64,000 nt of DNA, from the NCBI RefSeq assembly GCF_037893015.1, contig NC_133666.1, positions 625,283,852 to 625,347,851 of the forward strand, given 5' to 3'. This document shows, piece after piece, positions 14,702-17,700 of the stretch. The DNA is from Macrotis lagotis. Its lineage: Eukaryota > Chordata > Mammalia > Peramelemorphia > Peramelidae. The notes beneath the pieces were generated by a model. It was not told where the DNA came from, did no database searches, and worked only from the letters and a program-made list of their open reading frames with translations. The translations under genes were made by a program, and so were the position numbers. The first letter of the stretch is position 1, and the number at the start of each line of letters is the position of its first letter.

Positions 14702-14767
14702 ATGAGGAGAAGTCGCAGTTTCTTGGCCGTGTCTGTGAGCGGAGATGAGGTGCGCTACTCGGCCAGG
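14702..14767 (+). CDS. PDE4A: PDE4A alternative N-terminus, PDE4B1/PDE4D7-like, first coding exon
   Basis: The exon encodes 22 residues starting [19 protein letters not shown] and ends AGG|GTGAGA in phase 0. The start matches the PDE4B1 start MKKSRSVMTVMADDNVKDY in position and character. The ATG has A at -3. The exon opens upstream at an acceptor at 14632/14633, so its leader is 14633-14701. It joins in frame to 15365. I infer that this is the PDE4A8-type long form, which is known to be fast-evolving; I could not align it to the human or rat PDE4A8 N-terminus. Confidence 0.75.
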
Positions 14768-17700
14768 GTGAGAGGGGGCATGGGGTCCCGGGGCCGGGCA
14801 CAGGCAGGAAGGAGCTTGGGCACAAGTTTAAAGAGGTTCTATTAGTGTGCCCTCTGTTGGCCACTCCCTTTAAGAACCTCCCCACGTCCACCGCCGGGTC
14901 TTGGAATCTGGGGTCCCAGCCTGTGCCACTTGAACTTCAGGCAAACGGAACAAATTTAGGCAAGGATGCATGAGTAGGCTTCCCCAAGCTAAAGAGGCTA
15001 GAGCACTACCTCCTCCCTGCAGGGATTAACATCCCCTCAAGCTTCTGTCTGGAGCCCCCCCAAACCTGTCCCTGCCAATTTTTCTGGACTGACAAGAGAT
15101 GGAGTGGGCATATTGGAAACGAGCTATTCCCAGACTTTTAAGGCCAATCTAGGGGTAGAGTTCGAAGCAGTTGGGGATCAGAGATGCGATCAATGACTTT
15201 CTCAGTTCTGATTTACATTGGATTTATAGCCTTCTGAGATGTGCTATTGCACAAGTTTGGATTCGGATGGAAACGGGGACATTCCTCGGGGGTTGGTGGA
15301 GGATAAGGGATAAATACGAACTGGAATAGAACCCAATCCCTAATTCCCATCCTGCCCTCTGCAGAGGCCAAGGGAGACCGGGGAATCTAGCCGCTGTAGG
15401 CTCTCCCACACAGGGGGCAGCACTCTGGGCACTGAGCTGCGTTCACGTCTCCACCTTCGCCGCCTTTCCTCCGGTCCCTATGGCTTGGGCTGGGTGGACC
15501 AGGAACCAGCGGATGCAGCCCCACAGCCGCGGCCCAACACGCTGGCGCTACTGATACCTCCCCTCATCTCAGTCACCAGGGCAGAGCCTGACAGGTAGGA
15601 GCCAGGTGGGGGAGGGGGAGGGTGCACTTTTGGAACTCTTTCCAAACTAAAAGGGACCTTAGAAAAGGAAACTGAGGCCCATAGAAGTGAAGGAACTAGT
15701 TCAAAGTCTCAAAAGTAATTAGTCAGCTGTCTAACTCCAAACATTGCTTTCTTTCTCTCCTCCCCCCCCCCCCCCACTGATACTTGACTTTACCTCCTAC
15801 CCTGACATAGGGGAATTCATGGACATGGTAGAGTGTAAAAATAAGAGAAGCCAAGGTGTTGTGTTGGGTATGAGTGTTGTGTGTGTGTGTGTTTGTGTGT
15901 TCAAATGTCTTTGTGTGTGTGTTTCCTTATGGGTGGTGGTGAACCCATTCTAATTATATTAAGAACCAGACCAGTTTTGAATTGATCCCTGAATATGGGA
16001 ATGCTCATATTCTGATCTCCCTATTTTTTCAACCCACTGGCTTTTCTTCTGTTTGGTACATGGGGTCCTCTCTTTGAAACCACAGTCAAAACTGCCATGG
16101 CATGTTCAGGAGCCTCAGGGCTCAGATCTAGTTAGGGCTCTATCAGGATCTGACTTATACTAGAGGAATCAGCTTTCAAGTTGAACAAACTTTTAGCGAT
16201 CTTATCAAATAATTTCCTATTATAGTTGGGGAAATTGAGGCCCAGATTATGGCAGGGAATAGTTCAAGATCACAATGCAAGTTAGTACCAGAACCTGAAT
16301 TAGAATCCAGATCTTCTGGTTTCTAATTCAGTAATTTTTCTCCCAAACCTTCCTTTGGATGAAAAGGATAATTACATTTGTTTTACATTTCCAAGCATTT
16401 TTTTACTTAACAAAGTATGTTCCTCACAACATTACTATGTGGTGGTTAGTATAAGTCCAATATCTGACCACTATTCCTATTTTATAGATTAGAAAGTGAT
16501 TATTACATGATTTTTCCAGTCAACAAAAAATAAGTGTGCTAAACATTCTGCTGGTTTAGGGGAAGATAACTAATTGAGATAAGGCCCTACTTTTATGGTC
16601 CCTAGCCTAGTAGATAAGACAGTCATACATTCAATAAACTCTAAATGGCCCCAATTAATAAATTCCTTAGCTTCTAGAAGTAATATAGTTTAGGGAAGTC
16701 TCAGTCTTATATGTATTATGTGTTAAGCTAGAGTCAAGAGGTATAAATCAAGAGGGAAGTGAAGGGTAAAAGACCATAGCCCTAAGGTGGAGCATCATGC
16801 TTATTTTTTCATTATATAGAATTCTTTATATGCATATATATATATATATATGTATATATATTATGGGGACCTGAGGTTGAACATGGGAATAATACCTGGT
16901 GAACTAACCTAGGCTCTTGGACTTGAGAATCAATTAGCCAGAAAGAATTGCCTGTTCAATGTTCACCTGCTACATTCCAGTCTCATCACCAGTGTTGAGG
17001 AAGTACAGTCCATCTTTACTGATCCTGTTATTTCTCTGGGGTGGAGGCCTGGGATGAGGAGGAGAGACAGACACAGCAGGATGGCTCTATCATTTTATAT
17101 GGATTTGAGTGACACTCCCCATCCACTTCATCTCCACCTTAGAGTCAGTTTTCCCTTAGTACTCTGATAACAACCCCAAAAGGAGGGCTTCAGCCTTTGT
17201 AGTTTCCTGGAGGGGAGGGTTAGGGGGAAGGCATTGCTGAACTTTGATCTCTATGTCCAAGCAGAAAGTACCTTCCAGTGCCTCAGCACACCTTTAGGAA
17301 CTATTCTCTCCCTCTCTAACCCCTCCGCTGTCACTAATAGGTCCGGAAATAGGGTATCTTTTCTGCACTCTGACACTACTAAGGCCTTCCTTAACCCCAA
17401 AGTCTAAAATGCAGACAGAGCAAAAATATGAGTTATGAAGGCTCACTTCTGAAGACAGACCCTTTCTTTTGTCTTCTAGTGGAGGGGGAAGATTCTATCC
17501 CCTCTGAGGGGTCACTATGGAGAGGTCCATCTTTATTGGGGAATTCTCTTTAGACGATGGGAGGGGCAGGATTGGGAACAGATTCTGGTTCTGCGTCCAG
17601 GTGCTCGCATCTTAGATCTTTCTTCATAGGCTTGGGAGCCCACCACCTCCATTACTTCTCGTTAGCGGGAGCGCAGGCCTGATTGGAAGGGGGGAGGGGA

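Follow-up and report, generated by a model that had tools for sequence, protein, structure and literature searches.

The 64,000-nucleotide stretch of Macrotis lagotis DNA analysed here (the window) carries the PDE4A gene on its plus strand, the exons of which were mapped in a tblastn search that used human PDE4A as the query. They are listed in Table 1 together with the order of the first exons in the four PDE4 genes; the names type I, II and III for these first exons were coined in this analysis.

Table 1. Features of PDE4A in the window, and order of first exons in the PDE4 genes of the same genome
Feature	Position	Strand	Remarks
Exon 1, PDE4A8-like two-exon N-terminus (type I)	14702..14767	+	22 codons; phase-0 donor AGG/GTGAGA
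Exon 2, PDE4A8-like N-terminus (type I)	15365..15594	+	230 nt, phase 0 to 2; LRRLSS (RRxS site)
LRRLSS codons, candidate PKA site	15455..15472 (RR at 15458)	+	aligned with PDE4D7 VRRLSS in multiple alignments
PDE4A4/A5-type first exon (type II)	19413..19730	+	approximate limits
PDE4A11-like first exon, possibly type III counterpart	25320..25553	+	approximate limits
PDE4A10-like first exon	26991..27113	+	approximate limits
First common exon (UCR1 start, SFEVENG, QRRESF)	31925..32116	+	3' end approximate
PDE4A1 super-short first exon	35874..35939	+	
PDE4A catalytic exons (PDEase_I) and start of C-terminal region	41633..48085	+	
Order in PDE4A	I 14.7-15.6 kb, II (A4/A5) 19.4, A11 25.3, A10 27.0, UCR1 31.9	+	
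Order in PDE4C	I 650.418 and 650.428 Mb, II 650.4305, III 650.4487, UCR1 650.464		type I is a candidate
Order in PDE4D	I (exon 2) 262.735 and 262.781 Mb, II 262.889, III 263.081, UCR1 263.746		
Order in PDE4B	I (exon 2) 12.774, III 12.693, UCR1 12.327 Mb	-	

Joined together, the two type I exons of PDE4A leave 98 codons open and run via AG/C into SFEVENG at the common exon. Exon 2 contributes 76 codons plus AG, with a 16-residue block ahead of the shared FEVENG; its acceptor (ccctctgcag/AGG) and donor (CAG/GTAGGA) are both sound, as is the exon-1 donor. The first-pass annotation had proposed two exons in one unbroken frame of this length, ending in the right phase for the next exon, and the splice sites, the phases and the join at 31925 confirmed this. 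The ATG of exon 1 is the first in its own frame, with the preceding stop 24 codons upstream and an A at -3. Further phase-0 GT sites lie inside exon 1, and two of them are donor-like (GAG/GTGCGC after codon 16 and TCT/GTGAGC after codon 11), so that the 3' end at 14767 is graded as likely rather than certain. The start region is CpG-poor (GC 0.54, CpG o/e 0.32; three other PDE4A long starts, 0.57-0.86), which would suit a tissue-restricted promoter. A search of PDB with the N-terminus gave no match at E up to 10, and a search of Pfam with the N-terminus plus the first UCR1 exon gave none at E up to 0.01.

Two short motifs mark this N-terminus. The pattern M[RK][RK]SR[ST] occurred a single time in the six frames of the window, in PDE4A exon 1, at a chance level of 1 match per 60 resampled copies (0.017 per region) for the PDE4A window and for the PDE4C region each. 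The block RP.(T/S)L.L...P.I.(I/V)T before UCR1 was likewise found once in the six frames, at 15530, and in none of 60 resampled copies. Of the blocks claimed earlier to be shared with PDE4B1 and PDE4D7, MRRSRS and the 16-residue block were clear, and QLPPL was not: it is absent from PDE4A exon 2 and present in the PDE4B, PDE4C and PDE4D counterparts.

The second exons of PDE4B1 and PDE4D7 in the same genome (3.66 Gb searched) were located with human N-termini as queries, because a whole-genome search with the 99-residue PDE4A query at E up to 10 listed only its own locus (2 matches). PDE4D7 exon 2 was found on the contig containing the window (C9) near 262.735 and 262.781 Mb, and PDE4B1 exon 2 on another contig (C2) near 12.774 Mb. 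Exon 2 measures 230 nt in PDE4A, 239 nt in PDE4B, 230 nt in PDE4D and 224 nt in the PDE4C candidate described below, and runs from phase 0 to phase 2 in all of them. The common UCR1 exon dictates the phase-2 end, which leaves the phase-0 internal intron as the one piece of independent support. We aligned the exon-2 peptides pairwise with BLOSUM62, using 5000 shuffles for each pair. PDE4A resembled PDE4B at a global z of 6.74 (0 of 5000 shuffles as good) and a local z of 5.77 (2 of 5000), and PDE4D at a global z of 5.99 and a local z of 6.40 (0 of 5000 in both cases); the local z between PDE4B and PDE4D was 20 (0 of 5000).

Profile scans covered 2091 stop-to-stop segments of at least 20 residues in the six frames of the window, with 43108 control segments from 20 copies of the window in which two-base pieces had been shuffled inside blocks of 500 bases. 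With a profile of the own-genome PDE4B and PDE4D exons (B+D), the segment 15344-15595 ranked first of the 2091 (E 0.015, 12.1 bits), the next having an E of 0.51 and the best control 10.9 bits. After addition of two human rows exon 2 was again first (E 0.028, 11.1 bits), with one of the 43108 controls higher at 11.5 bits, and after addition of the PDE4C candidate to the B+D profile it reached E 0.0027 and 14.7 bits (next 1.2; best control 10.5 bits). In whole-genome searches with the human PDE4B1 and PDE4D7 queries, PDE4A exon 2 was not among the matches listed; a query with the PDE4B1 exon-1 peptide gave no match, its 15 residues being too short for the absence to mean anything. Significant shuffles and profiles, set against single-sequence genome searches that gave no link, indicate a similarity that is real but modest. 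Seven matches (L005, L006, L007, L017, L018, L037 and L038) were disregarded, being weak (E from 0.15 to 8.6).

The likeness extends to exon layout. As in PDE4B1, there are two exons with a phase-0 internal intron and an exon 2 of phase 0 to 2, an M(K/R)(K/R)SRS start (PDE4B1 exon 1 being the human peptide), RR..SG, and RP.TL.LL..P.I.(I/V)T. PDE4A differs from PDE4B1 in its exon 1, which is 8 codons longer than the 14 deduced for PDE4B1 from the human peptide and the exon-2 start, and in QLPPL, which PDE4B1 has. With PDE4D7 it shares the length of exon 2, phases 0 and 2, RRLS and RP.(T/S)L.L.I.PLI.(I/V)T.AE; in contrast, PDE4D7 keeps QLPPL, and its exon-1 peptide (human) is less similar to PDE4A. 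The kinship with PDE4B1 and PDE4D7 that the first-pass annotation had asserted is backed by the own-genome alignment of the second exons, which stands above chance (0 to 2 of 5000 shuffles as good), as well as by the exon layout and the exon order. As a separate observation, PDE4D7 exon 2 is doubled in this genome, at C9:262735385 (L003) and C9:262780942 (L002), about 45.6 kb apart and 99.6% alike over 3.2 kb, which points either to a local duplication of recent date or to a duplicate in the assembly. Two pairs of the weak matches are similarly doubled, L005/L006 (99.7%) and L037/L038 (98.0% over 2.8 kb).

PDE4C, with its UCR1 (FDLENG) at C9:650464076, probably carries a weaker candidate copy of type I, as judged from its sequence. 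The same B+D profile was run over 3309 segments of a 100-kb region of our choosing (650370000-650469999), and the segment with VRRRFSGTPQLPPLTWR ranked first (E 0.033, 11.6 bits against 10.9 for the best control); with the human rows it was again first (E 0.027, 11.8 bits against 11.5). The control set, made from the shuffled PDE4A window, exceeds the PDE4C region in size and does not derive from it. In a leave-one-out match PDE4C was first of 3309 and weak (E 0.091, 10.5 bits), and one of the 43108 controls reached 12.9 bits. The candidate exon 2, with VRRRFSGTPQLPPL, spans 650428249-650428472 (224 nt, phase 0 to 2) between ctctgcag/CGA and GGCAG/GTAAGG. For exon 1 we required an ATG followed by 9-32 open codons that end in a strong phase-0 donor, a rule with a background of 12 candidates over 94 kb of the PDE4C region and 2 over 31.9 kb of the PDE4A window. 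The sole candidate in about 18 kb upstream of exon 2 was MRRSRTAVSFLPNE at 650418454 (GAG/GTGAGA), and inside this exon lies the only M[RK][RK]SR[ST] of the PDE4C region.

By shuffling, PDE4C exon 2 resembled that of PDE4B (9 of 5000 as good locally, 5 of 5000 globally) and PDE4D (7 and 325 of 5000); against PDE4A the local score was not significant (2967 of 5000) and the global count was 126 of 5000. The two genes have kept opposite blocks: PDE4A has RP.TL.L without QLPPL, and the PDE4C candidate has QLPPL and no RP.TL.L. They agree in an MRRSR(T/S) exon 1, a phase-0 intron and a phase-2 end, and PDE4C has RR.FS. It is the additional evidence of exon 1, the phases and the splice sites that carries the case for PDE4C. 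According to the accessible text of a 2025 paper (PMC11820465), UniProt has sequences for only three of the seven PDE4C isoforms that have been classified, so that the candidate could be one of the others.

The first exons themselves fall into a common order (Table 1). Before UCR1 there are three types in PDE4C, three in PDE4D, two and a tentative third in PDE4A, and two in PDE4B, and as far as they were found they are collinear across the four genes. For type II, the A4/A5 query matched the PDE4C exon (E 1.7e-5) with PDE4D4 not listed, and a PDE4D4 query matched its own exon, A4/A5 (6.6e-5) and, weakly, PDE4C (0.34); among the matches listed for these two queries there was none in PDE4B. The local score of A4/A5 against PDE4C type II was 162, with a shuffle mean of 32.3 and none of 2000 shuffles as good. 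For type III, PDE4B3 gave 0 of 2000 with PDE4D5 and likewise with the PDE4C exon. The A11 string, extended two codons beyond its own frame with the stop included, gave local counts of 8, 302 and 701 per 2000 shuffles against B3, PDE4C type III and D5, and global counts of 10, 16 and 10; A11 as the PDE4A counterpart of type III is only suggestive.

The human PDE4A8 N-terminus has 85 residues, compared with the 98 codons found here. In the accessible text of Johnson 2010 (PMC2929239) the N-termini of PDE4A8 and PDE4B1 are each encoded by two exons, and 14702-15594 has this two-exon coding in a PDE4A long form; the likeness to human and rat PDE4A8 is one of description. A figure legend of that paper names PDE4A8 first among the PDE4A long 5' exons, and the pair at 14.7 kb precedes the A4/A5 exon (19.4 kb); the 5'-most place of PDE4A8 is taken from the order of names in the legend. 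Orthology would fit this layout and position. In the same accessible text, pig and marmoset ESTs searched for PDE4A8 yielded PDE4B1 orthologues instead. In the accessible parts of two further papers, one (PMC10146088) reports PDE4A8 in the developing testis of rodents, and the other (PMC9949383) reports its absence from alveolar and mesenchymal cells. From these comparisons we consider it likely that a PDE4A long form corresponding to PDE4A8 begins with the pair at 14702-15594, and that this pair represents a diverged copy of an ancient type I that was the 5'-most start before the PDE4 genes split.

Strong divergence, the loss of QLPPL and the CpG-poor start region would also be expected of exons that descend from the ancestral type I N-terminus and are now unused in this lineage. 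However, the 98-codon frame is open from an intact start codon, with intact splice sites and phases, and neutral drift over the age of the family would hardly have kept all of these, so that we regard such a relic as unlikely. It is more improbable still that the N-termini of PDE4A, PDE4B and PDE4D arose separately by sequence drift, an origin that Johnson 2010 proposes for such N-termini in general, and are alike by convergence. The shared blocks are indeed short, PDE4A and PDE4C are locally not significant, and the published view, in the accessible text of Johnson 2010 (PMC2929239), is one of PDE4 N-termini incorporated independently and progressively, with the homologous PDE4B5 and PDE4D6 as the exception; a legend of its supplement also proposes this separate origin by drift for PDE4A10. 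Against this stand the shuffle tests, the shared phase of the internal intron, the comparable lengths of exon 2, and an order relative to first exons of types II and III that recurs in several paralogues. Copying of the exon pair between PDE4 genes after their split, by conversion or duplication, would leave similarity as well, but the similarity seen here is low and looks old, and the exons are collinear with other shared first exons, which makes such a transfer the least probable account, and a very improbable one.

Collectively, these comparisons suggest that type I, as a means of starting the enzyme, predates the four PDE4 genes, as had been proposed from the PDE4A sequence, and the PDE4C candidate, new here, points the same way. 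The shared order of first exons speaks for starts that were already arrayed in the ancestor more than for independent incorporation, the published view. We see about an even chance that at least three long-form starts lay in order in the ancestral PDE4 gene, comprising type I (A8, B1, D7 and a PDE4C isoform not yet described), type II (A4/A5, C1-like and D4) and type III (B3, D5, a PDE4C one and perhaps A11). In that case the isoform-specific N-termini would be old sets that run in parallel through the paralogues and not separate mammalian gains, with an N-terminal PKA switch of type I retained in PDE4A, PDE4C and PDE4D. Homology of A8, B1 and D7, or a PDE4C copy, is not stated in the accessible passages of the papers compared, and we make no claim of absence from print.

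The PKA switch is suggested by an RRxS site at the corresponding place in exon 2, which reads LRRLSS in PDE4A, VRRLSS in PDE4D and RRRFS in PDE4C; PDE4B has RRCCS, not RRxS. In human PDE4D7, PKA phosphorylates Ser42 in LVRRLSCR with inhibitory effect, according to the accessible text of Byrne 2015 (PMC4346272); a 2025 review (PMC12699188) was among the literature compared. The pairwise local alignment of PDE4A and PDE4D uses a register at RRLS other than that of the multiple alignments, so that RRLS of PDE4A is a putative match of Ser42.

We propose that an alternative promoter 5' of 14702 would start a PDE4A long-form transcript in which exon 1 (22 codons) is spliced to exon 2 (76 codons and two bases) and then to the UCR1 exon at 31925. 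The predicted product would have a 99-residue N-terminus ahead of UCR1, UCR2 and the catalytic domain, and this type I N-terminus may place the enzyme within the cell. PKA acting at RRLS may hold this PDE4A form down under basal conditions, as at Ser42 of PDE4D7, and PKA acting at UCR1 would activate it. PDE4 N-termini are treated as unique postcodes. Should the long-form starts form collinear sets common to the genes, the partners and regulation of one isoform, such as PDE4D7 Ser42, could be searched for at the matching site of PDE4A8, PDE4B1 and a PDE4C isoform.

Some further features of the window were recorded. A CDC37 query gave no match within it at E up to 0.01. At 33389-33427, in the intron directly after an exon ending near 33332, there is a 39-base near-copy (37/39) of the beginning of the PDE4A1 exon (35874) that has CTG for ATG. 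Upstream of PDE4A, an open frame with MRRSETLDPCLGVWAGIRRRLRRLRSLL lies at 10687-11094 in a GC-rich stretch. Downstream of the gene, 53963-54808 is GC-rich with overlapping open frames, and is perhaps the promoter island of a neighbouring gene.
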